Positions 16,547 through 45,418 of a stretch of 64,000 nucleotides of DNA are shown in pieces. The notes under the pieces are model-generated. The model was not told where the DNA came from, did not search any database, and worked only from the letters and a program-made list of their open reading frames with translations. The position numbers and the translations under genes were made by a program. The DNA is from Bacteroides neonati (GTDB lineage Bacteria; Bacteroidota; Bacteroidia; Bacteroidales; Bacteroidaceae). Position 1 is the first letter of the stretch. Every line of letters begins with the position of its first letter. Where the stretch lies: NCBI RefSeq assembly GCF_000499785.1, contig NZ_HG726023.1:2534-66533 (forward strand), in the 5' to 3' direction.

Positions 16547-18382
16547 TCACAAATATCGTTTTAATGCTTTGCTCCAAATAACGTATCCGTCTTCTGTCAA
16601 GTGAAGTCCGTCACTTGTAAGTTCGGGACGTAATACATTGGTGCCTTTTTCGGTAAACAGAGGAAATAGATTGATAAAGGTTACTTTTCGGTTTTGAGCG
16701 ACTGCTTTCAGCTTTGTATTGATTTCGGGGATAAGCTCCGTTTTTCCTATCATTGTCTTATAGATACAAACTGATTCGTTAATTGGCAACAGGCTTTGTA
16801 CGTAAAGATGAGTATCGGGCGAATCGGTTCGTACGCGATCAATCACGCGGGTGATGAGGGTGACTACACTATCGGGAGTGAGTTGGTGAGAAAGATCGTT
16901 AACACCAATCATAAGAAAGAGCTTCTTTGGCCGGGCAGGCAGAATCTGATGAAGACGATCCAGTAGTCCCATTGCTTCATCGCCAATAATACCACGGTTG
17001 TAAACGGTCTTTTTCGTCTTGAAACGGGCTTTCCAATCACCGCCACCTTCCGTTAAGCTATTGCCTAGCATCACAATGTCTTTGTTGGTAATCGGTGTCT
17101 CGTTTTCGAAGCCAAGAAATCGTTGATAGTAATGATCGGTATAGAGGCGTGGGGTAGGGTAGATAGCACCAGCTACTGCGTTGGCCACCAGCGAACGGAG
17201 ACGGACTACCTCTCCTTTGTCTTCCGGATGGGCACGATTGGTCAATAGGATAACCGATGTATCGTTGTCGGGATCAATAATGATTGAAGTGCCGGTATAT
17301 CCGGTATGTCCGTAGGTGTTAGGCCCAAAGAGGTCGCCATTATTGGACGCATAGGGTGACGAAACATCCCAGCCCGGTGTTCGCCCGAAGGAGGCTACCG
17401 ATCTGGGAACGGTACGCATGACCTTAACGCTGAACGGACTAAGAATACGGTGGCCGTTCAACTCACCTCCGTTTTGCAGAGCAGCGACCAGCAAAGCTAC
17501 ATCACCGGCATTGGAGAAAACGCCCGCATTGCCCGATATGCCTCCATTCATGATGCGCGCGAGCGGATCATGAACTTGTCCGCAAAGAACACTGCCGTCG
17601 GGCTGTTTCTCTGTTGGGGCGATAAGCGGAGCGAATGGACTGGGAGAAATAGTGATCCATTGATTGTTTCTGCGCGTCGTGGGTAAATAATCGGTATGTG
17701 TCATCCCCAGCACATCGAAAATGTTGGCTTTGGCAAATTCGCGTAACGACTGGCCACTAACGGTTTCGATGATATGCTGCAAGGCGATGTAATTCAAGCA
17801 ACTGTATTGAAAATCGGTTTGCGGTTTAAAGTCTCGTTTGCAGGTGTTGATATAGGTAAGCAACCCCTCGGGGTTGGGCGATCCGTACTTTTTCTCCAAC
17901 TCGCTAACGGGTGCATAAGGGGGTAGTCCCGACGTATGTGTCAGGAGGTCTATAATGCGTATGTCTGTTTTTTTACCCTGCTCGTCTATCCAGCCTTCAA
18001 ATGCGGGGAGGTACAGGCCGACGCGATCTATGAGGCGTAGCTTGCCCCGCTCGACCAATATCATGGCCGAAATAGCAGTCGACATCGATTTGCTGCACGA
18101 AGCCATATCGAAAATCGTTTGGGTTTCCATTGGTTCGATCGTGGGGTATACTTGTTTGTGTCCATACGCTTTGAGGTAGGCAAGCTTTCCTTGACGAACG
18201 ATGGCAAGTACCGCACCGGGAATATCTTTTCGGGCAATCGCTTCTTCGATGGCAGCATCGGCGTAGGTGCTGAGATGGCGAGAGTTCATCCCTACTTGTT
18301 CGGGTGCCACACGCGGCAGTGATTGTGCAGCGGCAGAATCAATGATTAAAAAACAGATAAGGGCAATCAAAAGACTTTTCAT
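16547..18382 (-). CDS. Beta-lactamase-type serine hydrolase fused to SGNH esterase
   Basis: This 611-residue exported protein has a signal peptide at about 1-20 (ending SAAAQS). Residues about 25-390 are a class C beta-lactamase/DD-peptidase fold with the nucleophile motif Ser95-x-x-Lys98 (SCSK) and an HTG box (YGHTGYTG). The usual YxN motif reads YSC. Residues about 420-611 are an SGNH/GDSL hydrolase with GNSLTEGG, GVND and DGLHLTEDGY blocks. In a peptidoglycan locus the first domain could trim stem peptides and the second could remove O-acetyl groups; both substrates are inferred. It is the last gene of the 14-gene operon, 27 bases after murQ. Confidence 0.85.
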   Translation of the reverse strand: MKSLLIALICFLIIDSAAAQSLPRVAPEQVGMNSRHLSTYADAAIEEAIARKDIPGAVLAIVRQGKLAYLKAYGHKQVYPTIEPMETQTIFDMASCSKSMSTAISAMILVERGKLRLIDRVGLYLPAFEGWIDEQGKKTDIRIIDLLTHTSGLPPYAPVSELEKKYGSPNPEGLLTYINTCKRDFKPQTDFQYSCLNYIALQHIIETVSGQSLREFAKANIFDVLGMTHTDYLPTTRRNNQWITISPSPFAPLIAPTEKQPDGSVLCGQVHDPLARIMNGGISGNAGVFSNAGDVALLVAALQNGGELNGHRILSPFSVKVMRTVPRSVASFGRTPGWDVSSPYASNNGDLFGPNTYGHTGYTGTSIIIDPDNDTSVILLTNRAHPEDKGEVVRLRSLVANAVAGAIYPTPRLYTDHYYQRFLGFENETPITNKDIVMLGNSLTEGGGDWKARFKTKKTVYNRGIIGDEAMGLLDRLHQILPARPKKLFLMIGVNDLSHQLTPDSVVTLITRVIDRVRTDSPDTHLYVQSLLPINESVCIYKTMIGKTELIPEINTKLKAVAQNRKVTFINLFPLFTEKGTNVLRPELTSDGLHLTEDGYVIWSKALKRYL

Positions 18383-18409
18383 AATGATACCGATTACATA
18401 TTGCGTTAC

Positions 18410-19228
18410 TTATTTATTGGATCGATAAGCATCTGCGGCCTTTTTAACCGATCCGTGCATCAACAACAGAGCTTTTGCTTGATCGTATTCAAGACCAAGC
18501 TCTTCGATCAACATACGTGTGCCTCGATCTACCAGTTTCTGATTACTGAGTTGCATATTGACCATTTTGTTACCTTTCACCCGTCCCAGTTGAATCATAA
18601 CCGAGGTAGTGATCATGTTTAAGATCATTTTCTGTCCGGTTCCTGACTTCATACGCGAACTACCTGTCACATATTCCGGTCCTACAATCATCTCAATAGG
18701 CACATCGGCTTCGGCAGCCATGGGCGAATCGGGGTTGCTGGTAATGCATCCGGTCAGTATACCGTGTTCACGGGCTGCTCGCAAAGCACCTATTACATAG
18801 GGGGTGGTGCCCGATGCAGCAATACCTATTACGGTATCTTTAGTTGTGATATGGTGTGCTTCGAGCTCTTCCCAGCCACGGGTTGTATTATCTTCTGCAT
18901 TTTCTACCGGATTACGCAAAGCCGTGTCTCCTCCGGCAATGAGTCCGATGACAAGTGTAGGAGGCATACCGAAGGTGGGAGGTATTTCCGAGGCATCAAG
19001 TACACCCAGGCGTCCGCTCGTACCGGCACCCATATAAAAGATGCGCCCCCCCTGCTTCATACGGGGAACAATTTGGGCGACAAGTTTCTCTATTTGTGGA
19101 ATGGCGCGTGCGGTAGCCAAGGCTACCTTCTGGTCTTCGGTATTGATGTCTTCCAGTAATTCGCGAATTGATTTCTTCTCTAAATCGGTGTAGAGTGAGG
19201 GTTGCTCTGATATTTTAATAAAAGCCAT
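18410..19228 (-). CDS. murQ: N-acetylmuramic acid 6-phosphate etherase
   Basis: This 272-residue SIS-domain protein cleaves the lactyl ether of MurNAc-6-P, giving GlcNAc-6-P and D-lactate in the cytoplasm. Signature stretches are GAGTSGRLGVLDASEIPPTF (with one likely catalytic Glu in DASE) and NAEDN (second Glu region), plus GIAASGTTPYV and SSRMKSGTGQK. It is a little shorter than the E. coli enzyme. It follows murK by 30 bases in the order murT-murK-murQ known from Tannerella forsythia. Confidence 0.96.
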   Translation of the reverse strand: MAFIKISEQPSLYTDLEKKSIRELLEDINTEDQKVALATARAIPQIEKLVAQIVPRMKQGGRIFYMGAGTSGRLGVLDASEIPPTFGMPPTLVIGLIAGGDTALRNPVENAEDNTTRGWEELEAHHITTKDTVIGIAASGTTPYVIGALRAAREHGILTGCITSNPDSPMAAEADVPIEMIVGPEYVTGSSRMKSGTGQKMILNMITTSVMIQLGRVKGNKMVNMQLSNQKLVDRGTRMLIEELGLEYDQAKALLLMHGSVKKAADAYRSNK

Positions 19229-19258
19229 ACTATGCTGGATTAGTTAATGAATAGAATA

Positions 19259-20098
19259 TTAAGAGTGATGAAATCGAATGAGTCCGGGCATCGGACTCTG
19301 AATGATTGTGCCAAGTTTGATGCCGGCAGCAGTGGCGGCTTCTGCAAGTACTTCCTGATAGTAATAGGCTACCGATCCGATAAAGTGTACCGGTACATGT
19401 TCATAATCATATTGCTTCACATTACGTTCCAAAAAAGCACGGAAACTACCTAAGACCAAGGCACGCACCTTTGGCTCATCCAAGTGCTGCCAAGCGAAAG
19501 GCGACAGGCTGGCCAAGAATCGGTTGGGGAAGGGTTGGCGGTAGATGCGATCGATGATATCGGCCGGAGTCAAGCCAAACTGCTCGAGAAACTCCTCCTT
19601 CAAACCGTCGGGCATTTGATTTTTGAGCAGGTCGCCTACCAATAGTTTGCCTATAACAGCCCCACTTCCTTCATCGCCCAGAATGAAACCTAATGGCGAA
19701 ACATTGTTGACGATTTGCTTACCATCATAATAACACGAGTTAGAACCGGTACCCATGATACAGGCAATCCCTGCTTCGTGTCCGCATAATCCCCGGGCTG
19801 CTGCCAGCATATCGGTATCTACCTCGATCGTGTTAGTGACTTGCAGGTGTGCTGCAATGGCACGACGCACGGTTTCTATCTTGTCGGGAAAGGCACAGCC
19901 TGCTCCATAGAAATAAACGGCTTCAAAAGTATGTGTATCCAGTTGAGGAAGCAGTGTACTGGCTATCTCAGTACTAATTTCCTCCTCAGACTGGAAAAAG
20001 GGATTGGTGCCTTTGGTGAAAATTTGCTGGATCAATTGTCCTTTGTCTACCACGCTCCAATCTGTCTTGGTAGAACCACTATCTGCTATTAGTATCAT
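19259..20098 (-). CDS. murK: MurNAc/GlcNAc kinase, BadF/BcrA ATPase family
   Basis: This 279-residue sugar kinase of the ASKHA superfamily has the phosphate-1 motif DSGSTKTDW (residues 6-14), then VYFYGAGC, TDMLAAARGL and the GTGSNSCYYDG and GDEGSGAVIGK blocks. The Tannerella homologue, MurK, phosphorylates MurNAc and feeds MurQ. The start overlaps the end of murT by four bases. A paralogue is encoded at 38733-39581. Confidence 0.9.
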   Translation of the reverse strand: MILIADSGSTKTDWSVVDKGQLIQQIFTKGTNPFFQSEEEISTEIASTLLPQLDTHTFEAVYFYGAGCAFPDKIETVRRAIAAHLQVTNTIEVDTDMLAAARGLCGHEAGIACIMGTGSNSCYYDGKQIVNNVSPLGFILGDEGSGAVIGKLLVGDLLKNQMPDGLKEEFLEQFGLTPADIIDRIYRQPFPNRFLASLSPFAWQHLDEPKVRALVLGSFRAFLERNVKQYDYEHVPVHFIGSVAYYYQEVLAEAATAAGIKLGTIIQSPMPGLIRFHHS

Positions 20099-21216
20099 AT
20101 TTTAATGTATATTTTGTTTTTGTATAGTATATATCCGATGCCCCAGTTTAATATAACAAAGAGCAATGCGTATGCCAGCGAGCCGGGGTAATCGCCCAAT
20201 GCGGGCTGAAGAATAACGGAATAAAAATAAGTCTTAAGTGCCATCATGTCGCCTGTAGCGCCATAAGGAATGGTGATATTGGCAAGCAGGATGGAAAGAA
20301 CACCTGCCATAACGTAAATGAATAAGGGGTTTACACCAAAAACCTCGAAAGGTCTGCACCATGTTTTAAAGCCTTTCACGTCGATGAGCCACACTAGTAA
20401 TGCCAGAAAGCTGGAACCTAATCCGCAGGTGGCAAGAACGAAAGTAGGAGACCATATCTTTTTATTGATCGGGCATCCGTAACTTAGCAAAAAGCCAAGA
20501 AAGGTAAGGATAGTACCCGCCAAGAATAGACGTAATAACTTATCATTGATATCCTTCACTTCCATGAGAAGCTTGCCTACGCAAAAGCCGATGAGTACAT
20601 GTGCAATGGCGGGAATGGTGCTAAGCAGTCCTTCGGGGTCAATTCCATTGTCTTTGTACATATGCGCTTCTCCCAATACTGCCCGATCTACAATGGATAG
20701 GATATTGGTGTCGTTGTAAGCAAAGCCATTGCCCGTGATAAGCAGTATAAAATATCCCCCCAGCATGACCACAATGAGTGCCGGAATATATCGGTGCTTA
20801 ACGGTTAGCGCAATGATGGCTGTTGCACCGTAGCAGAGAGCAAGGCGTTGCATAACACCCAGAATGCGAATATGATCGAATGGTAGCCATTCGCCTGTAC
20901 GGCAAAGAATGGAGAACCACCCAATACCCAAGCCGATAGCAAAGATAACCAGTGTGCGTCGTAGAATCTTAGTCAGAGCCGACATGGAGAATTCAAATTG
21001 GTATTTACGCAGTGAGATATAAGTGGAAATACCCATGATGAACATAAAGAATGGAAACACAAGATCGGTTGGTGTTAAACCGTTCCATTCGGCGTGTTTC
21101 AGTGGGGCATAGATGGTGCCCCAAGAACCCGGATTATTGACCATGATCATCCCTGCGATAGTGATACCTCGTAAGACATCCAGTGCCAGTAAGCGGGAGT
21201 TGACTGTTTTACTCAT
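20095..21216 (-). CDS. murT: MurT-type MurNAc transporter (DUF5009/HGSNAT-like membrane protein)
   Basis: This 373-residue polytopic membrane protein has about ten hydrophobic segments and the family signature LDVLRGITIAGMIMVNN and HAEWNGLTPTDLVFPFF near the N-terminus. The family (COG4299, DUF5009) is usually annotated as heparan-alpha-glucosaminide acetyltransferase-like. From memory, the Tannerella forsythia member of the murT-murK-murQ operon acts as an inner-membrane MurNAc transporter. The identical gene order and four-base overlap with murK support that role here. Transmembrane acetylation of the sugar is the main alternative. Confidence 0.78.
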   Translation of the reverse strand: MSKTVNSRLLALDVLRGITIAGMIMVNNPGSWGTIYAPLKHAEWNGLTPTDLVFPFFMFIMGISTYISLRKYQFEFSMSALTKILRRTLVIFAIGLGIGWFSILCRTGEWLPFDHIRILGVMQRLALCYGATAIIALTVKHRYIPALIVVMLGGYFILLITGNGFAYNDTNILSIVDRAVLGEAHMYKDNGIDPEGLLSTIPAIAHVLIGFCVGKLLMEVKDINDKLLRLFLAGTILTFLGFLLSYGCPINKKIWSPTFVLATCGLGSSFLALLVWLIDVKGFKTWCRPFEVFGVNPLFIYVMAGVLSILLANITIPYGATGDMMALKTYFYSVILQPALGDYPGSLAYALLFVILNWGIGYILYKNKIYIKI

Positions 21217-21228
21217 GATTGTATAAGG

Positions 21229-24063
21229 TTATTTTGAAGTTGTACATTCGTTTACTAAATAAACAATGGATACATAGGGGATACCTGCATTTGTGGTCAA
21301 GCCGATTTCGCAGGTTCGACTGTTCGAATATCCGATAGGAATGTTTGCTGCTTCTATCTGAGGGCGAAGTTTTCGCAGTGCATAGGTATTTACTTCGGGG
21401 TGAGTGAAACCTTTATCTCCGGCAAATCCGCAACAACCGACTTCCTCGGGAACGAGAACATGAGCAGAGCATCGCTTAGCCAAGGCCATGATCGTGTCTG
21501 CCAAACCCATACGGCGCATGGAGCAGGTAATATGTAGCGCAACGGGGCGGTCTGTACGAGTGAACGTGAGCTTATCGGTTAGAAAGACACTGATGAACTC
21601 AGCGGGTTCATAAAGCTTCATGCGTGAGATGGTTTCTCTCATTCGATGCAGGCAGGGACTTTGGTCACACAATACCGGATAACGCCCTTGCTCAGACGCT
21701 TCCCATAATGCTGTTTCCAGTTCGGCTGCTTTACGGTCGGCAATGTCGGGCATACCTTTGCTTTCCCAGATCGTACCACAGCACAACTTATCCATTTCCC
21801 GGGGAAAGATTACCTCATAACCTGCCTTTTGCAGCAGTGTTAACATCTTATTAACAAGTGGTTGTGCAGTCGGTGATTGACGAGGGAGACCCATTGTTTG
21901 GTTAATACAGCTTGGAAAGTAAACAACCTTCAATGGGTCATTGGTTGCCGAAGGCGATTTCTTTACTAATTCTTTATCTATTTTATAGGCTTTGGGCATG
22001 GCAGGAGTCCATAAAGGGAGTCCCATCCATTGATGCATACCTTTGGCTATATGTTGCATGTTCTTCGTTCCTACGATGCCGTGTGCCGTATTTGCCAGTC
22101 TCAATACCGGACGAATGCTACCTTTGATACCGCGGAAATGGTTGGCAGCAAAATTGCCGATGTTATAGGCAAAGCTACCGATAGGAAATTTGGTCTCACG
22201 AAGTACGTGTGTCAGTGTTCCCGTGTTAATCCCCATCGGACACGATAAGGAACAAAGTCCATCACCCGCACAGGTTTCGTTGCCCGGATACTGATATTGT
22301 TTTTCTAGCTTCTCAAGGAGCTGCGGATTGCTACCGCTTTGTTTGAGTCTGCTTATTTCGCGCTGTACAACGATGCGCTGACGCGACGACAAAGTGAAGC
22401 CGCAGGTGAGGCAGTTAATCTCACAAAAGCCACATTCAATGCATTTATCTACCGCCGGATGAGTAAGCGGCAAGGGTTTGAAGTTCTTGATGTGGCACAA
22501 TGGGTCGTCGTTGAATATGACTCCCGGATTGAGTAGCCCTTTGGGGTCGAAGAGATGTTTAACCTCTTTCATAAATTGATAAGCAACCTCTCCCCATTCA
22601 TAGCGTACGAATGGTGCCATATTTCGGCCGGTGCCGTGCTCGGCTTTCAGTGATCCGTTATATTTATCAATAACTAATTTGATTACATCTTCCATCAATA
22701 AAGCATAGCGTTCTACTTCTCGTTCTGTACTAAAGCTTTGGTTGATAATAAAATGGTAGTTCCCTTCGAGTGCATGTCCGTAGATGCAAGCATCGTCATA
22801 TCCATGACGGGCAATGAGTGCTTGCAATTCGGCTGTTGCTTCGGGCAAATCGGCTATGTGAAATGCTACATCTTCAATCAGGCAGGTGGTGCCCGGTTGA
22901 CGCGTTCCGCCTACCGAAGGAAAAATACCCGAACGGATAGCCCAGTACTTGGAGTATTCTTCTGCCCGATCGGTAAAGTAGGGTGGCAGGTATGTATCGA
23001 ATGCTGCAAGTGTCTTCGTAATCGTATCTATGCGCATCTTCAGTTCTTCTGCTGTACACGCTTTGGTTTCGGTTAGTACGGCGGTGAGTCTCTCGCCGGT
23101 GGTGTCGTTGACCGAAGCGAGTGATTTATGATCGAGCAATTCGGCTCCGAAGACGATAGGAGTGCCTTCCGAACTCATTAATCCCTTCATAGCTACCACT
23201 GCCCGGCATGCTTCTTTGATGTCTTTAAAGTAAAGCATGGCACTTGCTTTGTGGGGGTAGTCGTATTCGGTTTTCATCGTTACCTCAGATAGGAATGCGA
23301 GCGTGCCTTCCGAACCCACTAATAGGTGAGCGATGATGTCGAACGGATTATCGGACAGAATGAAAGGAAGCAGATTAAGCCCCATCACATTCTTGATTGA
23401 ATATTTATAGCGGATACGCGCTACAAGTGTTTCGTCGGCCAATATCCGGTTACGAATTGCTTCGATAGTTGATATAAAAGAGGTGTGAGAGGATCTGAAT
23501 TGTGCCCGGCTAGCCTCCGATCCGGTATCGAGTATCGTTCCGTTGGGTAGTATCAGACGTGCCGAGAGGAGTACACGGTCGCTGTTGGCATGTGTGCCGC
23601 AGTTCATTCCGGAGGCATTGTTCATGACAATACCTCCCACCATAGCACTTTTTACGGAGGCGGGGTCGGGAGCAAACTTTCGTTTGTAGGGAGCTAGAAT
23701 CTCATTGACCCGTTGACCAATGATGCCCGGTTGAAGCGTAATCTGCTCATGATCGGGCGAAATGGAGTATCGCTCCCAATGTTTACCCGCTACAATGAGT
23801 ATGGAGTCACTAATAGCCTGTCCCGATAAGCTCGTTCCCGCTGCACGAAACGTGACGGGTAGTTCGTGGCGATAGGCTATGCGCAAGAGTTTAGATACTT
23901 CCTGTTCATTTTCCGAGCGGATAACTATTTGTGGAACCAGGCGATAGAAGCCTGCGTCGGTACCCCAAGCCAGCCGGTGGAGTTCATCGACATATATTCT
24001 GTCTTGCGAAACGAATGTGCGAACGTCTTCCAGAAAAGCCTTGTATCTATTTTCCTTCTCCAT
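21229..24063 (-). CDS. FAD/iron-sulfur D-lactate dehydrogenase-type oxidase
   Basis: This is a 944-residue fusion. The N-terminal FAD-binding type 4 domain carries FRAAGTSLSGQA (72-83). The FAD oxidase C-terminal domain ends with HGTGR (476-480) and DPKGLLNPG. Next come a ferredoxin-like segment with Cys541/544/547/551 and Cys598/604/608, and C-terminal CCG domains (KLCCGTIWESKG, VGCCGFAGDKGF). Such fusions oxidise 2-hydroxyacids, usually D-lactate or 2-hydroxyglutarate, passing electrons to the respiratory chain. It lies 12 bases upstream of murT and in one operon with murQ, whose product is D-lactate, so D-lactate is the likely substrate. Confidence 0.85.
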   Translation of the reverse strand: MEKENRYKAFLEDVRTFVSQDRIYVDELHRLAWGTDAGFYRLVPQIVIRSENEQEVSKLLRIAYRHELPVTFRAAGTSLSGQAISDSILIVAGKHWERYSISPDHEQITLQPGIIGQRVNEILAPYKRKFAPDPASVKSAMVGGIVMNNASGMNCGTHANSDRVLLSARLILPNGTILDTGSEASRAQFRSSHTSFISTIEAIRNRILADETLVARIRYKYSIKNVMGLNLLPFILSDNPFDIIAHLLVGSEGTLAFLSEVTMKTEYDYPHKASAMLYFKDIKEACRAVVAMKGLMSSEGTPIVFGAELLDHKSLASVNDTTGERLTAVLTETKACTAEELKMRIDTITKTLAAFDTYLPPYFTDRAEEYSKYWAIRSGIFPSVGGTRQPGTTCLIEDVAFHIADLPEATAELQALIARHGYDDACIYGHALEGNYHFIINQSFSTEREVERYALLMEDVIKLVIDKYNGSLKAEHGTGRNMAPFVRYEWGEVAYQFMKEVKHLFDPKGLLNPGVIFNDDPLCHIKNFKPLPLTHPAVDKCIECGFCEINCLTCGFTLSSRQRIVVQREISRLKQSGSNPQLLEKLEKQYQYPGNETCAGDGLCSLSCPMGINTGTLTHVLRETKFPIGSFAYNIGNFAANHFRGIKGSIRPVLRLANTAHGIVGTKNMQHIAKGMHQWMGLPLWTPAMPKAYKIDKELVKKSPSATNDPLKVVYFPSCINQTMGLPRQSPTAQPLVNKMLTLLQKAGYEVIFPREMDKLCCGTIWESKGMPDIADRKAAELETALWEASEQGRYPVLCDQSPCLHRMRETISRMKLYEPAEFISVFLTDKLTFTRTDRPVALHITCSMRRMGLADTIMALAKRCSAHVLVPEEVGCCGFAGDKGFTHPEVNTYALRKLRPQIEAANIPIGYSNSRTCEIGLTTNAGIPYVSIVYLVNECTTSK

Positions 24064-35300: not shown

Positions 35301-35393
35301 ACATGTTTCGGGAGTCACGTTTTGCCCCATAGCAGCTTGTGGGAGCAAGCTTACTATGAGTAATGCAAATAGGGAGGTACGGATGCTTTTCAT
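32307..35393 (-). CDS. Amidase_3-like peptidoglycan amidase with golvesin-type insert
   Basis: This 1028-residue exported protein has a signal peptide at about 1-23. Four likely zinc ligands of an N-acetylmuramoyl-L-alanine amidase are spread along it: His162 (LWQSHGYYY), Glu213 (PRERD), His489 (AFHTDAG) and Glu572 (MLLELLSH). A golvesin-C/xanthan-lyase-type beta domain (about 270-375) is inserted between the second and third. A fibronectin III-like domain (about 618-710) and an uncharacterised C-terminal region follow. It would cut stem peptides from MurNAc in the periplasm. It is twelve bases after the symporter gene. Confidence 0.8.
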   Translation of the reverse strand: MKSIRTSLFALLIVSLLPQAAMGQNVTPETCSAIGKAIDAIARKEISVGKIKIDSTHVTAKEVHLFANYNCSYIPFREENVERIYREVRALLPTELGKHRVRIYTDRHLIEELIPLAMRSKKDKKALTFSHKVDKPLITRLSVPYTPSNGLQNRHIALWQSHGYYYEPKLTRWEWQRARIFQTVEDLYTQSYVLPFLVPMLEQAGANVLIPRERDTQTNEAIIDNDGSLSQGSVYREQTGSKAWKAAQAPGFAQLLATYKEFENPFKEGTYRLAETIKKGKESLAEWIPEIPQNGKYAVYVSYQTVENGTDDALYTVYHKGGVSQFKVNQQMGGGTWIYLGHFAFDAGNSENGKVTLSNRSSKAGRIVTADAVKIGGGYGNIARRISDEGATENKKSSDTSISPINKQLPTVNYPYETSGYPRFCEAARYWMQWAGIPDSIYSESRGTNDYTDDYKARGHWVNYLAGGSPVNPGGQGLGIPIDMAFAFHTDAGTTPNDSIIGTLGIFYTDVSNGKYANGASRLAAHDLTDLIQSTITRDIRTLYEPDWTRRGMWNKSYYEARAPQVPTMLLELLSHQNFADMRYGLDPRFRFTVSRAIYKGILQFVCSQYKMPYVVQPLPVDHLSLRFTTDNEVELNWQPVNDPLEPTAKPDSYLVYTRIGNSDFDHGTLVKGTSYRTTLPTDVVCSYKVTAVNKGGESFASEILSAGKATNSHGTVLIINGFDRISAPADFVATADSLAGFLDRLDHGVPYKEDISYIGSMKEFRRPIPWMDDDASGFGDSYANYETMVIAGNTFDYPSIHGAAILKAGFSFTSCSDEAIQDKTIHMEPFQVVDLILGKECQTKMGRGGITPLTFKTFDQEMQKAITDYCRAGGNFFVSGAYVGSDLWDNRLATPNEEDKTFATEVLKYKWRVGQAATTGKVKTVISPFSHQIDSYSYYHELNPQSYVVESPDAIEPADSQATTVMRYAENNLSAGIAYKGAYRTYVLGFPFESLRTATEREQLMRTILNFFTDETSVSGSSVNNHP

Positions 35394-36884: not shown

Positions 36885-38051
36885 TTATTCTTGATAAAGC
36901 AAGTAGGGCTTGCGTTGTTTCTTAAACTTTACCACATCCCCTTGCCACATGGCTTTAATCTCGTCGGCACTTTTTCCCTCTTTAATCATCTTGCGCACGT
37001 AATCAGTGCCCACAAGCAGTTCAAAAAATGGGCGAAAGAAGTGATCATCGAGATTTAAATTCCGATAGGCATCGATTACGTAGCTTAAATCGACTCCTTT
37101 TTTCCAGATTTCTTCATCGCTTAGTCCGCTAAGATTGACTCCGTAGCACACACGGTTTAGCTGCGGTGGATTCTTAGCTCCGGGCAAGCTACGTGGAGTG
37201 AAGCTGTAATTATAACCTTTCATGTTGGGGTGTCCATATACCTGAAACGGGAGAGAGGTACCCCGACCCAAACTCACGGGTGTTCCTTCAAAGAAGCAAG
37301 TCGATGGATATAAATAGATCGCTTTCATGTTAGGTAAGTTTGGCGACGGCGGAACGGGTAATTGATACATCGTTTGATGTGTATAGTTGCGGCACTTTAT
37401 CACTGTAATGTCGCAAGTGCGAGATGCCGGTAGCCAGTGCTCGCCATTGACCATACCTGCCAATTCGCCCAAAGTCATACCATGTACAATCGGAATAGGT
37501 AGCCAGCCCACTCCCGATTTGTATTTCATGTTGAGTATAGGACCATCTACATAGTGTCCGTTGGGGTTCGGTCGATCTAATATCAGCATTTTCCGGTTTG
37601 ACTCGGCGCAGGCATCCATTAACCTCACCATCGAGGCATAGTATGTATAGAAACGTAGCCCTACATCTTGTATGTCTACAACCAATATATCGAATTTCTT
37701 CATCGACTCTTTACTCGGTTTTCCCGATTTACCATTGTATAAAGAGAGTATGGGTACACCTGTTTTTTTATCTACCGAGCTTGAAATGTGCTCACCTGCA
37801 TCTGCATCTCCCCGAAAACCATGTTCGGGTGAGAAGATAGCAACTACATTTATCTTATGCTCGAGTAATACGTCCAATAGATGTTTGTCTCCAACCATTC
37901 CTGTGTGGTTGGAAAAGATAGCCACTCGTTTATCTTTTAATAGAGGAAGGTATTCGTTTAATTGTTCGGCACCTACTATGACGCGTTCTGTTTGCGCCTG
38001 ACAAAACAGGGTGCTACATATCAACAATGCTATAAGTAGAACTTTCTTCAT
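36885..38051 (-). CDS. Second NamZ-type exo-N-acetylmuramidase (DUF1343)
   Basis: This 388-residue exported protein, using ATG 38049-38051, has a signal peptide MKKVLLIALLICSTLFCQAQ. A longer frame upstream would start beyond the promoter -7 element at 38085-38092 and is rejected. DUF1343 motifs are all present: KRVAIFSNHTGMVG, FSPEHGFRGDADAGEH, VVDIQDVGLRFYTYYASM, ILDRPNPNGHYVDGP and SLGRGTSLPFQVYGHP. It is the first gene of the 14-gene salvage operon. The two NamZ copies are clearly diverged and may prefer different strand ends or peptide substitution. Confidence 0.9.
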   Translation of the reverse strand: MKKVLLIALLICSTLFCQAQTERVIVGAEQLNEYLPLLKDKRVAIFSNHTGMVGDKHLLDVLLEHKINVVAIFSPEHGFRGDADAGEHISSSVDKKTGVPILSLYNGKSGKPSKESMKKFDILVVDIQDVGLRFYTYYASMVRLMDACAESNRKMLILDRPNPNGHYVDGPILNMKYKSGVGWLPIPIVHGMTLGELAGMVNGEHWLPASRTCDITVIKCRNYTHQTMYQLPVPPSPNLPNMKAIYLYPSTCFFEGTPVSLGRGTSLPFQVYGHPNMKGYNYSFTPRSLPGAKNPPQLNRVCYGVNLSGLSDEEIWKKGVDLSYVIDAYRNLNLDDHFFRPFFELLVGTDYVRKMIKEGKSADEIKAMWQGDVVKFKKQRKPYLLYQE

Positions 38052-38732: not shown

Positions 38733-39581
38733 ATGAAACTTATCGCGGAGAGTGGTTCTACAAGAACTGAATGGGCATTGGTTGAAGATGATCATCTTGT
38801 GCAATCTGTTTTTACAGAAGGGCTTAACCCGTTTTTTCAGAGCCGGAGAGAAATTAGCAGAAGTGTTCGATTGGGATTGCCCGAGCCCTTCTTTAAAAAG
38901 AAACTGGAGCAAGTGTACTTCTACGGTGCCGGTTGCTCCTCCAATGAAAAGAAAAATATTGTTGGTGCCTCTTTGGTAGCTCAATTTAAAACTCCGATAC
39001 AGGTTGAGAGTGATCTACTTGCTGCCGCCCGGGGCTTATTCAAGTGCGAACCCGGTATTGCCTGCATTTTAGGAACTGGGTCAAATTCTTGTTTCTATGA
39101 TGGGAAAATTATTGCAAAGAACATCAAGGCTGCCGGATATATATTAGGAGATGAAGGAAGTGGCTCTGTATTAGGTAAATTGTTCTTATCAGATGTATTA
39201 AAAGGGTTGGCTCCCAAGCAGATTTCTACTGATTTCTATGAGAAGTTTCGTATTTCGCCCAATGATGTAATGGACTCTGTCTATAATCACCCTTTTCCTA
39301 ATCGCTTTTTGGCAACTCTTTCTTATTTTCTGGCTGACTATCTGGATAATGAGTATGTTTATAATTTGTTGACCAGCAATTTGCGTAGTTTCTTTGTTCG
39401 CAATGTCTGCCAGTATGATTATAAAAACTATCCTATCCGTTTTGTCGGTTCGCTGGCTTATAGTTATTCGGATCAATTGCGGGATGTAGCACACGAATTT
39501 GGTATCGAAATAGATGTTATTGAAGAAACGCCTATGGCCGGATTAATTGAGTTCCATTCCTTGAATATTGAAGAACCATAG
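38733..39581 (+). CDS. Second MurK-like amino-sugar kinase (BadF family)
   Basis: This 282-residue paralogue of the kinase at 19259-20098 shares VYFYGAGC, DLLAAARGL, GTGSNSCFYDG, GDEGSGSVLGK and HPFPNRFLATLS. The phosphate-1 motif reads ESGSTRTEW instead of DSGSTKTDW: two Asp to Glu and one Lys to Arg change, all conservative. It may have a different sugar preference (GlcNAc versus MurNAc) or lower activity. It is transcribed rightward, upstream of SusC/SusD (464-base gap). Confidence 0.85.
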   Translation: MKLIAESGSTRTEWALVEDDHLVQSVFTEGLNPFFQSRREISRSVRLGLPEPFFKKKLEQVYFYGAGCSSNEKKNIVGASLVAQFKTPIQVESDLLAAARGLFKCEPGIACILGTGSNSCFYDGKIIAKNIKAAGYILGDEGSGSVLGKLFLSDVLKGLAPKQISTDFYEKFRISPNDVMDSVYNHPFPNRFLATLSYFLADYLDNEYVYNLLTSNLRSFFVRNVCQYDYKNYPIRFVGSLAYSYSDQLRDVAHEFGIEIDVIEETPMAGLIEFHSLNIEEP

Positions 39582-40045: not shown

Positions 40046-43000
40046 ATGAATGAAGATCACAAAAAAAGAGGACTAAGCAATAGCAAGCTCCTCACCGCTG
40101 TGGCAATCGCAGCTCTATTTATTGGAGCCGGGAATGTAATGGCAAATTCAGCTGCTTCGGGCAGTATCAATAATGTAACAGAGCAACAGCAACAATCGCA
40201 GTCTATTTCGGGTGTAGTTGTTGATGCATCGGGTATATCGGTCATTGGAGCCAGTGTTGTTGAAAAAGGTACAACGAATGGAACCATTACGGATATGGAT
40301 GGACAATTTAAACTCAATGTAAAGCCGGGCGCTATGCTGCAGGTTTCTTTTGTGGGTTATCAAACGCAAACGGTAAAAGCTGAACGCACAATGAGAATTG
40401 CGCTGAAAGAAGACTCTGAGCTATTGGATGAAATAGTTGTAGTGGGGTATGGTACGCAGAAAAAAGAAAATTTAACGGGTGCTGTAGCTTCAGTAGACGT
40501 GAATAAAACGCTAAATGGTAGGCCGATAGCAGATGTTGGACGTGGCTTACAGGGTACTACCCCTGGGCTTTCTGTTGTTATTCCAAGTGGTGAGGTGGGT
40601 TCTGACCCTGTGATGAAGATTCGTGGACAAATAGGTTCTTTAAATGGAGGATCTGCCCCGCTTATTCTATTGGATAACGTTGAAATCCCTTCTATTCAGA
40701 TGATTAATCCTGATGATATCGAATCTATTTCTGTATTGAAAGATGCTGCTTCCGCTTCCATATATGGTGCTAAAGCCGCATTTGGTGTCGTATTGATTAC
40801 TACTAAAAAAGGTGCAAAACAAGAAAGTGTCAATGTTACTTATTCTGGAAATTTCTCTTGGCAAAATATCTCTAAAAATATGGAGATGGCTGGAATTGAT
40901 GGAATGGAATATACCGTTGAAGCTTTTGAACGTGTTAAAGGAACGAAGGCCGGAGCTTTTTGGTTGGTAGATCGTACTAGTTTCGAGAAAGCTAAAGAAT
41001 GGCAAATGAAATGGGGTGGCCAAATAGGCTCCAATGATCCATTTGTATATGGACGTGACTGGTATCGTGGCGCCGATACAGGTAAATATAGCATGAGAAC
41101 ATTTGATCCTTATGACTATATGATTGCCGAATGGACACCATCAATGACACATAATGCATCGATTAATGGTAAAAGTGGTCGTACAACATATAATGTAGGA
41201 CTTGGTTATTTGAGTCAAGAGGGCTTAATGAAAACGGCTAAACATGATGATTTTAGACGCTATAATGCCTCGGTTCGTTTAAGTACAGATATTAATAAAT
41301 ATTTAACGATTAGAGCAGGTGCAATTTATTCTAAACGGAATAAAAGATATCCTTATTCTACTAATTCTACAACTGCCGATCCTTGGCTATATCTCTATCG
41401 ATGGGGACCATCTGTTCCTATGGGATATAATGAAGAGGGGGAAGAACTTCGTAGTCCAGCTTCTGAAACGAGACAGGCTAATACTGCGAATATAGAAAAT
41501 AATTATACAAATATTAACTTAGGAGCAACGCTCAATATCACGAAAAACTGGAAAGTTGATTTTGATTATACTTACGCCAATGAGCAAGAATTAATCAACC
41601 GTCCGGGAACTCGCTTTACTGCACTGAATACTTGGGGAGCTGCTATAACTAAATTAGATGCGTCTGGGAATCAAGTATATGTAGATGACAACGGTAGTGT
41701 AGTAGCACCTGGTGCTCCTGGTGCAATGCCTGCATATACTTTGAGTAATTTTGAATATACAAGTTCGGGTGCTAATCCTGATCATATTTATCGTAAGTCA
41801 ACCAATGCTAATCGAAATACGATTAATGTGAATACCAACTATAATTGGCAGATTGATGAAAATAACAGCATTAAAGCCATGTTGGGAATGAATCGTGTTA
41901 CGTGGGATGAGAAGTATAACTGGTCACAAACAACAAAATTGATGGACTTGGAAAACCCTCAATATGATTTAGCTTACGGAACACAAACAGCTAGTGGTGG
42001 TAGTGCATGGGATGGACAGTTGGGCTTTTTTGGTCGTGTGAATTATGCACTGTTTGATCGTTATTTGATAGAAGCCAATTTGCGTTATGATGGTACTTCT
42101 AAATTTCCCAATAACTTACAGTGGCGTTGGTTCCCTTCTTTCTCAATGGGATGGCGTGCTAGTGAAGAGTCTTTTATGCAATGGGTTAAACCTGCAATGA
42201 GCTCACTGAAGTTTCGCGGATCATGGGGTACAATTGGTGATCAAACTGTAAGTAATAAGTTATATGTACCTACCATGGATACTGGCCAAAGTACATGGAT
42301 TGGCGGCGATGGAAGTAAAGTAGGTTATGTAGGCACACCTACTGCGATTATTCCCTCCATTACCTGGCAAGATATTACTACGCTCGATTTTGGTGTTGAC
42401 CTACGTTTCTTAAATAATGAATTAGGTGTTACCTTTGATTGGTATCGTCGAGATACGAAAAATATGATTGTGCCCATGGGTAATGTTTCGCTTGGTTTTG
42501 GCGCAGAAGCACCTAAAGGAAACTTTGGTTCATTACGAACAGACGGTTGGGAGTTAGCGGTTGATTATAACCATCGTTTTGCTAATGGTATTGGAATCAA
42601 TATTATGGCTACCTTGGCCGATGCTATAACAGAAATTACGGCTTACGGCGATACCAAAAGCGTTGATAGTTGGTATGTAGGAAAGAAATATGGTGAAATT
42701 TGGGGCTATCGTACAGACCGTCTTTATCAAAAAGATGATTTTGAGTACGGCAGTGATGGAAATATTAAGAATGTTTGGATCAAAGGCGGTAAAATCTACG
42801 AAACGTCAGTGGCGGGAGCGAAGATGGTTAATAAACTGAAAGATCCAAATGCAGCTTATCAAGACTACTTGCAAGGAGGTGATTTTATTTTTGGTCCTGG
42901 TGATGTAAAATACACTGATTTAAATGGAGATGGAACAATAAATGATGGAAGTCGCTCGGTTGCACTAGATGAAAATGGTAATCCAATGTATGGTGACTTA

Positions 43001-43555
43001 GAGGTAATTGGTAACTCTACTCCACGCTTTGAATACGGTTTCCGCTTAGGTGCCGACTATAAAGGGTTCGATTTATCTTTGTTTTTCCAAGGTGTAGGCA
43101 AACGTGAGATTTGGGGGGATGGTTTTCTTGCTATTGCGGGATATAACTCTGCCGATGGTGCAATGCCTCAAGCGATTGCAGGTGACTTCTGGAAAGAAGA
43201 CCGTACTGATGCTTTTTATCCACGTGCATTTAATAATGGAGGATCGAACGATGCTTATAATATGAAGAAGCAATCTGGTTATTTACTAGATATGTCATAT
43301 CTCAGAATCAAGAATATTACTCTAGGCTATTCTTTACCAATGGAATGGATGAAAAAGGTGCATGTTCAAAAGGCGCGTTTTTATGTAGCTCTTGAGAATT
43401 TTGTGACTTGGGATAAGTTGGGTGGACTTCCTATTGATGCGGAAGTAATATCTGGTTATTCTATGTTTAATACGGATAATTATAACTCGGGACGTACAGG
43501 TGTGGGAACTCCAACATTTAAGAGTATGTCGGTTGGCGTTCAGTTGAACTTTTAA
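40046..43555 (+). CDS. SusC/RagA-type TonB-dependent outer membrane transporter
   Basis: This 1169-residue protein has a signal region (about 12-34), then a CarboxypepD_reg-like domain (about 53-130: SGVVVDASGISVIGASVVEKG, ending before LDEIVVVGYGTQKKENLTGA). A plug domain and a 22-strand barrel follow, ending in a terminal aromatic residue (VGVQLNF). It imports oligomers across the outer membrane with TonB energy, capped by SusD. The adjacent kinase and opposing salvage operon suggest peptidoglycan fragments as cargo. No N-terminal signalling (STN) domain is seen, so it is not a sigma/anti-sigma transducer. Confidence 0.95.
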   Translation: MNEDHKKRGLSNSKLLTAVAIAALFIGAGNVMANSAASGSINNVTEQQQQSQSISGVVVDASGISVIGASVVEKGTTNGTITDMDGQFKLNVKPGAMLQVSFVGYQTQTVKAERTMRIALKEDSELLDEIVVVGYGTQKKENLTGAVASVDVNKTLNGRPIADVGRGLQGTTPGLSVVIPSGEVGSDPVMKIRGQIGSLNGGSAPLILLDNVEIPSIQMINPDDIESISVLKDAASASIYGAKAAFGVVLITTKKGAKQESVNVTYSGNFSWQNISKNMEMAGIDGMEYTVEAFERVKGTKAGAFWLVDRTSFEKAKEWQMKWGGQIGSNDPFVYGRDWYRGADTGKYSMRTFDPYDYMIAEWTPSMTHNASINGKSGRTTYNVGLGYLSQEGLMKTAKHDDFRRYNASVRLSTDINKYLTIRAGAIYSKRNKRYPYSTNSTTADPWLYLYRWGPSVPMGYNEEGEELRSPASETRQANTANIENNYTNINLGATLNITKNWKVDFDYTYANEQELINRPGTRFTALNTWGAAITKLDASGNQVYVDDNGSVVAPGAPGAMPAYTLSNFEYTSSGANPDHIYRKSTNANRNTINVNTNYNWQIDENNSIKAMLGMNRVTWDEKYNWSQTTKLMDLENPQYDLAYGTQTASGGSAWDGQLGFFGRVNYALFDRYLIEANLRYDGTSKFPNNLQWRWFPSFSMGWRASEESFMQWVKPAMSSLKFRGSWGTIGDQTVSNKLYVPTMDTGQSTWIGGDGSKVGYVGTPTAIIPSITWQDITTLDFGVDLRFLNNELGVTFDWYRRDTKNMIVPMGNVSLGFGAEAPKGNFGSLRTDGWELAVDYNHRFANGIGINIMATLADAITEITAYGDTKSVDSWYVGKKYGEIWGYRTDRLYQKDDFEYGSDGNIKNVWIKGGKIYETSVAGAKMVNKLKDPNAAYQDYLQGGDFIFGPGDVKYTDLNGDGTINDGSRSVALDENGNPMYGDLEVIGNSTPRFEYGFRLGADYKGFDLSLFFQGVGKREIWGDGFLAIAGYNSADGAMPQAIAGDFWKEDRTDAFYPRAFNNGGSNDAYNMKKQSGYLLDMSYLRIKNITLGYSLPMEWMKKVHVQKARFYVALENFVTWDKLGGLPIDAEVISGYSMFNTDNYNSGRTGVGTPTFKSMSVGVQLNF

Positions 43556-43567
43556 ATAAACTAAACA

Positions 43568-45418
43568 ATGAAAAAATATATTTTTACATTATTAACAGCG
43601 GTAGCTTTTGCGCTTACTGGATGTGATGACGTCTTGGACCGTCCGCAATTGAACAATCCTCAAGATGATAACTTTTGGAGAAATGAAACCGATTTACGCT
43701 TGTTTGGCAATGGCTTTTATCCAAATTATTTTGTAGGTTATAATAGCGGTTGGGGAACAGCTTTTGCGCCATTGCGTGGTTATAATTTCTCAGATGATTT
43801 TGCTGTAACAGGCAAACAAACATCTTTTGAAAACACGGTTCCTTCTAGTCGGGGAAGTTCTAAAGAAGAAGTTGCCTGGATGGATGCTCAAAATGCAGGA
43901 CCTACTTGGAATTTTGCTTGGGTACGTAAAGCTAATTTATACATTGACCGTATTGAAACTGTAGCTAAACCTAAAATAACAGAGGAGGTATATAAACATT
44001 GGATGGCAGTAGGGCGCTTTTTTCGCGGCTATGAGTATTGTCGCTTAGTGAGTGTTTTTGGTGCAGTACCTTATTACGATAAAGTGTTCTCTGAAACAGA
44101 TGAGAAAGAGATGTTTAAAGATCGCTCTTCGCGTAAGGAAGTTATGGAAAAAGTCTATGCCGATTTTCAATATGTGATGAGCAATATGCGTTTGGATGAT
44201 GGTGCACAAAACTTAAATAGATACATTGCGGCAGGATTTATTAGTCGCTTTATGTTGTTTGAAGGTACTTGGCAGAAATATCACAATGAAGATCCCACGT
44301 TGGCTAAGAAATATTTAGAAATGGCTCGAGATGCTGCTCAGTTGATTATTGATTCAAAAAAATGGGCTGTAAGCGGTGAGTTTAGAGGTCTTTTTGGTGC
44401 ACAGGATTTGAAAGGGCATAAAGAGGTGCTAATGTATCGTCATTATGATGCTGCTTTGGGAGTTACTCATCATGTTGCTTCATACTCCAATGGTCAAGAA
44501 AGCCAGTCGCCAGCACCTAATCTTGCTTTGGCTAAATCGTTTTTATGTAATGATGGTAAACCGTATGCAAATTCAAGTGTCGACAATGCAACGGTACTTG
44601 ATATTACAAATATGATTAAGACTCGTGACCCGCGATTTGAAGCTACATTTGAGTCAAGACCTAAAATAGAATCAGTAACGTTGCTTTATGCAACTAAGTT
44701 TATTGATCGTGTAGGTCCATCTTTGGCCGATCCGGGCAAAGTTGCCATTTATGGTAGTATGACTAATACGAATGATTATCCGGTAATGCGTTATTCTGAA
44801 GTTATATTGAACTGGATTGAAGCGAAAGCGGAGTTAGCCAAAAGTTATGGTGGAGTCGCAGTAACACAAGGAGATATAGATATTTCAATTAATGCCTTAC
44901 GTGCCCGTCCATTGGATAAACCAGCTGTAGATAAAGGTGTACAACAAACGCGTCCAATGGTATTGGCCGATATTACAGATGCTTTTGCTCCTGATCGAGA
45001 TAAAGACGTAGATCCTTTAATTTGGGAAATACGCCGCGAACGTCGAATGGAATTTGTTTTCGAATATTCTCGTATTCATGACTTAAAACGTTGGATGAAG
45101 TTAAGCTATATGGATAATAGCTTATATCCTGAAACTAAATTAGGTTTATGGGTTAATTTAAAGAAAGAGGTACCTAGCTATTTGAATCCGAACAAGGATG
45201 GTACTTATCCTAAAAGACAGGTTATGAAAGAAGATATGAAAACGATTATTACTTATGACGGGAAAAATGGAGATGCTTTGGTCGGCTTCTACGTACCTCT
45301 GAACGCTAGTAATAGGGATGGATTTACTGAACGATCGTATTGTGCACCAATAGGTAAAGCTCAAATAGATCAATATGCCGAAAAAGGTTATAAGTTGACT
45401 CAAACGACCCTTTGGTAG
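43568..45418 (+). CDS. SusD/RagB-type surface lipoprotein
   Basis: This 616-residue protein has a lipoprotein signal with lipobox LTGC (mature Cys about residue 19) followed by DDVLDRP. TPR-like helices and the SusD C-terminal pattern (IWEIRRERRMEFVFEYSRIHDLKRW) are clear. It forms the lid that captures ligand over the SusC barrel. It starts 12 bases after susC and is followed by a strong terminator. No extra surface binding protein or glycoside hydrolase follows. Confidence 0.95.
   Translation: MKKYIFTLLTAVAFALTGCDDVLDRPQLNNPQDDNFWRNETDLRLFGNGFYPNYFVGYNSGWGTAFAPLRGYNFSDDFAVTGKQTSFENTVPSSRGSSKEEVAWMDAQNAGPTWNFAWVRKANLYIDRIETVAKPKITEEVYKHWMAVGRFFRGYEYCRLVSVFGAVPYYDKVFSETDEKEMFKDRSSRKEVMEKVYADFQYVMSNMRLDDGAQNLNRYIAAGFISRFMLFEGTWQKYHNEDPTLAKKYLEMARDAAQLIIDSKKWAVSGEFRGLFGAQDLKGHKEVLMYRHYDAALGVTHHVASYSNGQESQSPAPNLALAKSFLCNDGKPYANSSVDNATVLDITNMIKTRDPRFEATFESRPKIESVTLLYATKFIDRVGPSLADPGKVAIYGSMTNTNDYPVMRYSEVILNWIEAKAELAKSYGGVAVTQGDIDISINALRARPLDKPAVDKGVQQTRPMVLADITDAFAPDRDKDVDPLIWEIRRERRMEFVFEYSRIHDLKRWMKLSYMDNSLYPETKLGLWVNLKKEVPSYLNPNKDGTYPKRQVMKEDMKTIITYDGKNGDALVGFYVPLNASNRDGFTERSYCAPIGKAQIDQYAEKGYKLTQTTLW

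Follow-up and report, generated by a model that had tools for sequence, protein, structure and literature searches.

A predicted cytoplasmic GT2-DUF4922-SpoIID set in an enlarged peptidoglycan-salvage locus of Bacteroides neonati

The closest described system for the recovery of cell-wall sugars is that of Tannerella forsythia (T. forsythia), in which the genes Tanf_08345-08385 are co-transcribed, as determined by reverse transcription PCR (RT-PCR), and regulated by GppX (PMC5388701). The operon has the order 'xanthane lyase'-gtf-gtf-lytB-ampG-ybbC-murT-murK-murQ and was termed 'glycosylation related' by its authors (PMC5388701). A second kinase for N-acetylmuramic acid (MurNAc), K1058, is encoded upstream of the murTKQ cluster, and PDB entry 8OW7 is K1058 with MurNAc (PMC10465942). 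The AmpG permease is required for growth of T. forsythia on peptidoglycan sources, ampG rises on peptidoglycan, and the delta-ampG mutant releases the peptide-free disaccharides of N-acetylglucosamine (GlcNAc), GlcNAc-anhydroMurNAc and GlcNAc-MurNAc (PMC7670621). The same source, which also describes the AnmK step, reports that T. forsythia grows on GlcNAc-anhydroMurNAc sources via AmpG although it has no predicted AnmK; the processing of the imported disaccharides is a step that 'remains to be explored' (PMC7670621). Here, we describe a 64,000-nt stretch of Bacteroides neonati DNA (the window; positions 2,534-66,533 of contig NZ_HG726023.1, assembly GCF_000499785.1), which carries an enlarged form of this operon and in which three neighbouring genes, encoding a GT2 glycosyltransferase-type protein, a DUF4922 protein and a SpoIID-domain protein (hereafter, the trio), are candidates for that step. 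All positions are given in window numbering; the window genome (label G000) comprises 5.02 Mb in 18 contigs.

Fourteen minus-strand open reading frames (ORFs) in the ORF listing, between 16547 and 38117, face three plus-strand ORFs encoding a kinase, SusC and SusD (Table 1). The 13 intergenic gaps of the run measure 30, 12, 10, 8, 8, 3, 27, 6, 39, 12, -4, 30, and 27 bp, so that the coordinates bear out the initial annotation, made from the sequence alone, which had described 14 genes with gaps of 39 bp or less opposite a kinase-SusC-SusD unit; our family scans also agree with its list of gene families, apart from the Amidase_3 score of the window copy. On one strand, the window genes follow the order amidase-GT2-DUF4922-SpoIID-AmpG-NamZb-MurT-MurK-MurQ, which is that of the T. 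forsythia operon as given in the relevant passages of PMC5388701, and a K1058-type second MurNAc kinase is likewise present. In contrast to those passages, a phosphoesterase/PQQ gene and an oxidoreductase gene are interposed, and the window adds a NamZa-symporter pair at the head, a PBP4B/SGNH gene at the tail, and the SusC/SusD pair. The window DUF4922 gene occupies the slot of the second gtf; from position alone, Tanf_08355 would be a DUF4922 protein and Tanf_08345 the amidase.

We are therefore confident that the locus serves peptidoglycan salvage, as the T. forsythia operon does, of which it is an expanded Bacteroides form. As such, the 'peptidoglycan salvage locus' of the initial annotation is well supported by gene families and order, but it is not new, because the ampG-murTKQ operon (PMC5388701) and K1058 (PMC10465942), which it reproduces in enlarged form, had already been published. 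AmpG import, MurK, MurQ and the operon structure have all been published for relatives, and several of the parts said to be 'never assigned to wall recycling' belong to the published operon; that description does hold for gtf and lytB, insofar as the passages available from PMC5388701 and the other sources give them no role. What the present analysis adds is the gene order, domain fusions, lack of signals, folds and co-occurrence described below and, relative to the initial annotation, the predicted cytoplasmic nature of the trio and its fusions in particular.

DUF4922 was found in 103 genomes besides that of the window, of which 50 were hand-chosen, with long contigs preferred, and fetched with up to 20 kb on either side of the gene. 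A further 80 named records with up to 10 kb on either side brought the total to 130 stretches, or 128 after removal of two duplicates (L009 and L046). Since this sample was found through DUF4922, the frequency of DUF4922 in it is by construction. GT2 was present in 119 of the 128 stretches, SpoIID in 108, AmpG in 108, MurK in 78, NamZb in 66, MurQ in 64, MurT in 56, AmiG in 46, and the D-lactate-type oxidoreductase in 27. Where both partners occurred, GT2 and DUF4922 were same-strand neighbours or fused in 113 of 119 stretches, DUF4922 and SpoIID in 100 of 108, and SpoIID and AmpG in 82 of 98, and this adjacency extended to stretches without NamZ or MurTKQ. Adjacency was also the rule for MurK-MurQ (63/63), NamZa-SSS (23/24), oxidoreductase-MurT (23/23), and MurQ-PBP4B (19/20). 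The most broadly retained unit is thus GT2-DUF4922-SpoIID(-AmpG), to which MurNAc catabolism is variably added. Because gene order is conserved in relatives, chance can be excluded for the 14-gene arrangement. Among named records, the closest DUF4922 relatives are from Bacteroides nordii (68%), followed by B. fragilis, B. salyersiae, and others. The module also extends beyond Bacteroidales, since Ignavibacteria-type records carry its genes: two keep the order GT2-DUF4922-SpoIID-AmpG (L083 and L084), three have SpoIID upstream of DUF4922 (L070, L076, and L077), and one has GT2-DUF4922 without SpoIID (L060).

The AlphaFold2 (AF2) model of the GT2 protein (predicted local distance difference test, pLDDT, 90.5) consists of two GT-A-like halves, and its nearest relative by both profile and fold is the K4 chondroitin polymerase (2z87/2z86), which also has two GT-A domains in one chain. 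However, identity to that enzyme is only ~14%, the global superposition is poor (TM-score 0.43 by query), and the window offers no polymer-export context. The second domain contains invariant D334-S-D-D337, E422-D423, and RRW residues. For the DUF4922 protein (AF2 pLDDT 90.1), the top fold match is yeast Apa2 (4i5v, 2.3e-9), followed by a DUF4931 protein and GalT. H146, H148, and Q150 of its HxHFQ motif are invariant in 21 sequences and so, despite an identity of only ~17% to Apa2, both the fold and the HxHxQ-type motif place it in the Ap4A phosphorylase/GalT superfamily. The SpoIID protein, which is the only PF08486 match in the window genome, was aligned to 4rwr and 5i1t, which, with 5txu, represent the lytic transglycosylases of spore formers, and keeps their SEM/GEM glutamate and C-terminal GxGHG region; the glutamate, E119, is invariant in 24 sequences. 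Unlike these enzymes, it lacks a signal peptide, lies beside or is fused to GT2 and DUF4922, and neighbours AmpG.

SpoIID lytic transglycosylases act outside the cytoplasm, and hydropathy, which is what we used to judge location, gives the window SpoIID protein no such placement: neither a signal peptide nor a transmembrane (TM) helix was found in the window GT2, DUF4922, or SpoIID proteins. The test is a simple N-terminal hydropathy score with a threshold of 2.0, as opposed to a trained signal-peptide predictor, and its counts omit open-ended ORFs and those outside 0.75-1.15 of the length of the window protein. The threshold was exceeded by 3/90 SpoIID, 0/103 GT2, and 0/80 DUF4922 proteins, similarly to MurQ (0/57) and MurK (0/84), whereas it was exceeded by 64/70 NamZa, 73/78 NamZb, 33/35 phosphoesterase/PQQ, 33/44 amidase, and 5/7 PBP4B proteins. 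When read individually, one of the three SpoIID exceptions proved to be an over-long ORF start and two reflected the region of the first beta-strand; none was signal-like. In addition, 7 of the 50 fetched genomes, from four genera, encode GT2, DUF4922, and SpoIID as a single chain (G162, G232, G213, G221, G195, G226, and G200), six encode a GT2-DUF4922 fusion (G059, G165, G237, G188, G219, and G215), and three a DUF4922-SpoIID fusion (G184, G111, and G025); G168, with a 766-aa DUF4922 frame that is probably a GT2 fusion, was left out of these counts. The fused chains contain no segment of TM strength (no 19-residue window exceeds 1.6, the highest value being 1.48), which puts the joined domains in the same compartment, and a single polypeptide without a TM helix in 7 of 50 genomes implies that the trio should act in the cytoplasm. 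Our first idea, that SpoIID is a periplasmic enzyme, was consequently dropped, given a sequence without a signal peptide.

In Escherichia coli (E. coli), cell-wall sugars are recycled along the route NagZ-AnmK-MurQ. The window shares with E. coli both AmpG import and the MurQ end step, but the window genome gave no AnmK match. All seven of its GH3 proteins have signal-like N-termini, as judged by hydropathy and by eye, although one does so only from an internal start and another scores 1.76 on the hydropathy scale. The only one with KHFPGHG, presumably the NagZ-type motif, is L290 (G000:C5:166164-167102), which has a signal-like start and is predicted to be exported. With neither an AnmK match nor a GH3 protein that lacks a signal, the usual cytoplasmic steps that follow AmpG were not found by these searches.

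We then compared the distribution of these families in 159 Bacteroidales genomes, the same set being used for every count, of which 37 contain DUF4922, 106 contain AnmK, and 51 contain an AmpG-family protein (E<=1e-20); as none of the latter reaches the curated cut-off, some may not be true AmpG. An AmpG-family protein is present in all 37 DUF4922 genomes, compared with 14 of the 122 others. AnmK occurs in 4 of the 37 (in one of which, G038, it is two separate matches), as opposed to 11 of the 14 AmpG genomes that lack DUF4922 (Fisher 8e-6). The order-level anti-correlation of DUF4922 and AnmK (Fisher 5e-16) was not taken at face value, as it was considered inflated by ancestry, and was replaced by a test on a midpoint-rooted tree of one gene, rpoB. 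The tree holds 100 hand-picked genomes of the 151 with rpoB, and includes all 37 DUF4922-positive genomes, 16 of the 20 with neither gene, and 47 of the 102 with AnmK only. A two-trait Markov model in which AnmK loss depends on DUF4922 gave rates of 0.073 and 1.08 (likelihood ratio 13.17, p 2.9e-4), AnmK being lost faster in DUF4922 lineages. The result persisted without 14 genomes that are <95% complete (p 9.0e-4), without G010 (p 1.9e-3), without G010 and with G038 relabelled (p 6e-4), and in a four-degree version (p 0.0086). Among genomes with MurQ (E<1e-40), AnmK was found in 4 of 19 with DUF4922 and 9 of 13 without (Fisher 0.011), although this support is weak because two of the MurQ matches are fragments. 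As a separate observation, a strong MurQ match at the same cut-off is missing from 93 of the 106 Bacteroidales genomes with AnmK.

Based on these data, we propose the following route. Outside the cytoplasm, the two NamZ enzymes would release MurNAc from glycan ends while the Golvesin-Amidase_3 protein would strip stem peptides, a placement that follows from their signal-like N-termini and their families. AmpG would import peptide-free GlcNAc-MurNAc and GlcNAc-anhydroMurNAc, as concluded from the T. forsythia mutant, and MurNAc would enter through the MurT-position protein, and perhaps the sodium/solute symporter (SSS). MurK would produce MurNAc-6-phosphate and MurQ would convert it to GlcNAc-6-phosphate and D-lactate. 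Between AmpG and MurK, the trio would replace NagZ and AnmK: SpoIID, with its lytic-transglycosylase fold, might open the 1,6-anhydro ring, and GT2, running in reverse with a nucleoside diphosphate (NDP), together with DUF4922 acting as an NDP-sugar phosphorylase, might convert GlcNAc-MurNAc into GlcNAc-1-phosphate and MurNAc. Inverting GT2 enzymes form beta links from alpha-linked NDP-sugars, and GlcNAc-beta-1,4-MurNAc would therefore be a stereochemically possible substrate for the reverse reaction. We lean, somewhat, towards a trio that is cytoplasmic and acts on the products of AmpG. The full account, an enlarged salvage operon in which the trio stands in for NagZ and AnmK, seems to us evenly poised between right and wrong. 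The exact chemistry of ring opening by SpoIID and phosphorolysis by GT2 and DUF4922 is our conjecture and is unlikely to be correct in detail, and we are just as sceptical of its boldest form, in which the trio is a new recycling machine that saves the bond energy as GlcNAc-1-phosphate and replaces NagZ and AnmK in many Bacteroidota.

Several observations weigh against this proposal. Neither a lytic transglycosylase able to open anhydroMurNAc nor a GT2 enzyme that acts as a net phosphorylase is known to us, and the first GT-A domain of the window protein has fewer recognisable motifs than the second. SpoIID was not found in 20 of the 128 stretches; most of these are truncated, either at the end of a contig or at the 10-kb limit of the flank, but seven are 40 kb long (e.g., G133, G029, G059, G002, G023, and G151), and G133 has GT2-DUF4922-AmpG-NamZb-MurT-MurK-MurQ with no SpoIID in the stretch. 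AmpG was likewise not found in 20 of the 128 stretches. The recycling gap in the window genome refers to AnmK and signal-less GH3 NagZ, neither of which was found; GH20 and GH84 were not searched. Three AmpG genomes have neither AnmK nor DUF4922 (G087, G096, and G142), and support for the key sister groupings of the single-gene, midpoint-rooted tree is ~0.8 (0.80-0.82). In a sample of 296 genomes from the phylum, AnmK occurs in 17 of 41 genomes with a strong DUF4922 match (one AnmK match, in G453, being weak) compared with 190 of 255 others (Fisher 7e-5), where three genomes with weak DUF4922 matches and AnmK (G264, G373, and G397) were counted as negative; co-occurrence is thus common across the phylum, yet below background. 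In the family of the window, AnmK is present in 4 of 81 genomes, of which G189, G212, and G231 have the full locus, while that of G160 is interrupted by the end of its contig, after the oxidoreductase. AnmK is also absent from the 12 members of the family that lack DUF4922; the depletion therefore goes back in part to a single old loss, which may be partly unrelated to the trio. The trio is evidently compatible with AnmK, since the phylum sample and four family relatives include genomes with both, and strict exclusivity of AnmK and the trio is ruled out on the same grounds.

These points bear on three other explanations. The depletion of AnmK might reflect only shared ancestry or lifestyle, the trio having no connection with anhydro sugars. 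One clade does supply most of the DUF4922-positive, AnmK-negative tips, and the presence of both genes together, across the wider phylum as well as in four close relatives, points the same way; however, the tree-aware test favours dependence (p 2.9e-4, and 1.9e-3 or 9.0e-4 without G010 or the incomplete genomes), and separate DUF4922-positive, AnmK-negative lineages (G143/G029/G072/G106/G015, G093, and G055) stand beside AnmK-positive sisters with support of 0.80-0.82, which leaves this explanation doubtful, if still credible. We attach a similar, modest probability to an anabolic function, in which the trio builds a cytoplasmic glycan or conjugate from salvaged sugars, with GT2 as a forward polymerase, DUF4922 making or recycling the nucleotide sugar, and SpoIID trimming the product. 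It would account for the nearest GT2 fold being that of a bifunctional polymerase, for the phrase 'glycosylation related' used in PMC5388701, and for GT2-DUF4922 without SpoIID in at most 20 of the 128 stretches (fewer where GT2 is also missing). On the other hand, it does not predict AnmK depletion, nor would it explain why all 37 DUF4922 genomes have an AmpG-family protein and why DUF4922 usually lies beside muropeptide genes, and family scans of the 14-gene run revealed no glycan-export genes.

A third explanation, which we consider improbable, is that SpoIID reaches the periplasm by an unseen route and works there as an ordinary lytic transglycosylase, acting after the amidase and feeding AmpG, while GT2 and DUF4922 are unrelated passengers. 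Sporulation follows such a logic, with an amidase acting before SpoIID cleaves the denuded glycan. Extracts of T. forsythia also contain both lytic transglycosylase and amidase activity (PMC7670621). However, the window protein has no signal peptide, 87 of 90 homologues do not exceed the hydropathy threshold, and seven genomes encode SpoIID as an in-frame fusion with GT2 and DUF4922 that contains no TM helix. As for the proposed replacement of NagZ and AnmK by the trio, the T. forsythia data, as presented in the portions of PMC7670621 that we draw on, would fit an enzyme that requires the disaccharide, but would fit equally the poor import suggested by the authors.

The initial annotation had also claimed outer-membrane uptake, which is plausible but unproven, as the ligand of a SusC/SusD pair cannot be read from its sequence. 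We defined neighbourhoods of the full type as those with at least three of NamZb, MurK, MurQ, and AmpG in the stretch, and read at least 36 kb of each of 13. SusC/SusD lies near the locus in seven (G133, G019, G189, G212, G231, G166, and G194), with SusC 41-67% identical to that of the window, and was not found in the other six; linkage to the salvage locus is thus recurrent but not universal. The pair stands together with degradative genes, as in a polysaccharide utilisation locus, and it may carry peptidoglycan fragments across the outer membrane. The alternative, that it imports a different glycan and is a mere neighbour, has appreciable weight, though we think it the less probable: such pairs are abundant in Bacteroides, this one has a promoter-like match of its own ahead of SusC, and six neighbourhoods lack it, whereas the recurrence of a related pair in seven of 13, and of SusC as the immediate same-strand neighbour of the K1058-type kinase in 4 of 8 stretches with both, speak for a connection.

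Table 1. Features of the salvage locus in window coordinates
Feature	Position	Strand	Evidence
NamZa, exo-beta-N-acetylmuramidase family, signal-like N-terminus, head of run	36885..38051	-	NamZ_N 7.6e-76, NamZ_C 1e-31
Sodium/solute symporter (SSS) that pairs with NamZa, candidate importer of sugar	35406..36854	-	SSF 8.7e-30
Exported Amidase_3-type protein, inserted Golvesin_C domain and fn3	32307..35393	-	Golvesin_C 4e-27; family alignment
Calcineurin-type phosphoesterase and PQQ-like propeller, signal-like N-terminus	30416..32296	-	Metallophos 4.1e-17, PQQ_2 6.2e-38
Trio gene 1: GT2 protein with two GT-A domains in tandem, without signal or TM helix	28950..30407	-	GT2 4.3e-22
Trio gene 2: DUF4922, Ap4A phosphorylase/GalT-type fold, HxHFQ motif	27991..28941	-	DUF4922 2.7e-65
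Trio gene 3: SpoIID-domain protein, no signal peptide	26668..27987	-	SpoIID 6.7e-21
AmpG-family muropeptide/disaccharide permease (major facilitator superfamily, MFS)	25351..26640	-	TIGR00901 2.8e-53, below curated cut-off
NamZb, exo-beta-N-acetylmuramidase family, signal-like N-terminus	24103..25344	-	NamZ_N 2.1e-86, NamZ_C 6.9e-41
FAD/Fe-S oxidoreductase, GlcD and GlpC-like	21229..24063	-	FAD-oxidase_C 1.1e-43; glcD 7.6e-58, below cut-off
MurT-position membrane protein, NagX/HGSNAT kind	20095..21216	-	HGSNAT_cat 8e-9; NagX 6e-39, below cut-off
MurK, MurNAc 6-kinase, BadF-like	19259..20098	-	1zxo 9.3e-126; T. forsythia MurK 8ow9 1.4e-116
MurQ, MurNAc-6-phosphate etherase	18410..19228	-	TIGR00274 314 bits, cut-off 302
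PBP4B-like beta-lactamase-fold and SGNH hydrolase, signal-like N-terminus, last of run	16547..18382	-	Beta-lactamase 1.4e-63, Lipase_GDSL_2 1e-20
K1058-type second MurNAc kinase, divergent	38733..39581	+	phmmer 8oqk 1.2e-137, 8ow7 2.7e-137
SusC/RagA TonB-dependent transporter	40046..43555	+	TIGR04056 798.7 bits
SusD-type surface lipoprotein	43568..45418	+	SusD_RagB 5.7e-25

Of the remaining genes of the locus, that for the 1028-aa Golvesin-Amidase_3 protein had been annotated as an 'Amidase_3-like hydrolase'. The window copy alone does not support the description, since its Amidase_3 match (E 0.0026) is below the Pfam cut-off, but the family does: 19 of 20 aligned members, the window protein included, match the profile (E up to 1; best E 5.9e-7), and H162, E185, H489, and E572, which we take to be the Zn-binding and catalytic residues, are invariant in all 20. 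By these alignments, the protein would be an Amidase_3-type enzyme with a Golvesin_C domain inserted into it, and a possible source of the strong amidase activity that has been discussed in T. forsythia. The 'xanthane lyase' label in T. forsythia probably derives from Golvesin_C, which is common to the Paenibacillus xanthan lyase 6f2p, and genes labelled 'xanthan lyase' at this position are probably Amidase_3 enzymes. The MurT-position protein contains an HGSNAT catalytic domain. T. forsythia MurT has been described as distantly related to NagX (PMC9007349) and placed in the sodium symporter superfamily (PMC5790795), and family membership leaves both a transporter and an acyltransferase reading for the window gene; the SSS gene is an alternative candidate for the MurNAc carrier. 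The FAD/Fe-S oxidoreductase may oxidise the D-lactate released by MurQ, and the phosphoesterase/PQQ and PBP4B/SGNH proteins are provisionally assigned by family name. For the rightward kinase, Pfam gave no match at 0.001, and its placement comes from a sequence search of the PDB.

The start of NamZa is more likely the ATG at 38051 (388 aa, with a signal-like N-terminus) than the listed 38117, a revision that leaves the 13 gaps unchanged, and that of the rightward kinase is more likely 38733 (282 aa), because its PDB homologues begin there. A match to TTTG-N-TAnnTTTG, which we assume to be the Bacteroidetes-type promoter consensus, lies at 38118-38085 (-), just ahead of the NamZa ATG, and a second at 39715-39748 (+), ahead of SusC. 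There are five such matches in the 64 kb and none between 16547 and 38051, although the pattern is weak, as at least five also occurred in 6 of 100 shuffled sequences. Between 16000 and 35900, sigma-70-like matches (33, versus 33.2 in shuffles) and terminator-like matches (17, versus 18.7) are at chance level.

Genes for a lactate permease and LutABC-type L-lactate oxidation (12117-16399) lie on the same strand, 147 bp past the operon and beside this D-lactate-releasing MurQ locus. They were considered as members of the locus and set aside: LctP adjoins PBP4B in none of the 128 stretches, most of which, with 10-kb flanks, are too short to show this. Elsewhere in the window, an AAA protein with a Mu-B C-terminal domain is encoded beside a 687-aa ORF without a Pfam match (280-3272; possible Mu-like transposition genes), and ResB, cytochrome c assembly proteins, an Alginate_exp-family protein, and a Crp-type regulator follow in a row at 7925-11999.

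None of the literature matches listed, as titles and the beginnings of abstracts, describes the trio as a recycling system; the set covers few subscription papers and not those on NamZ1/NamZ2. How AmpG-positive bacteria without AnmK use anhydro-muropeptides was stated to be open for T. forsythia (PMC7670621). The trio is a concrete and widespread candidate for that step, fused into one protein in some genera, and the question can therefore be tested with three proteins and one substrate. If true, this would, to our knowledge, be the first case of a SpoIID domain that works in the cytoplasm. The trio also has a bearing on the question of which fragments of the wall are consumed by gut Bacteroidota.

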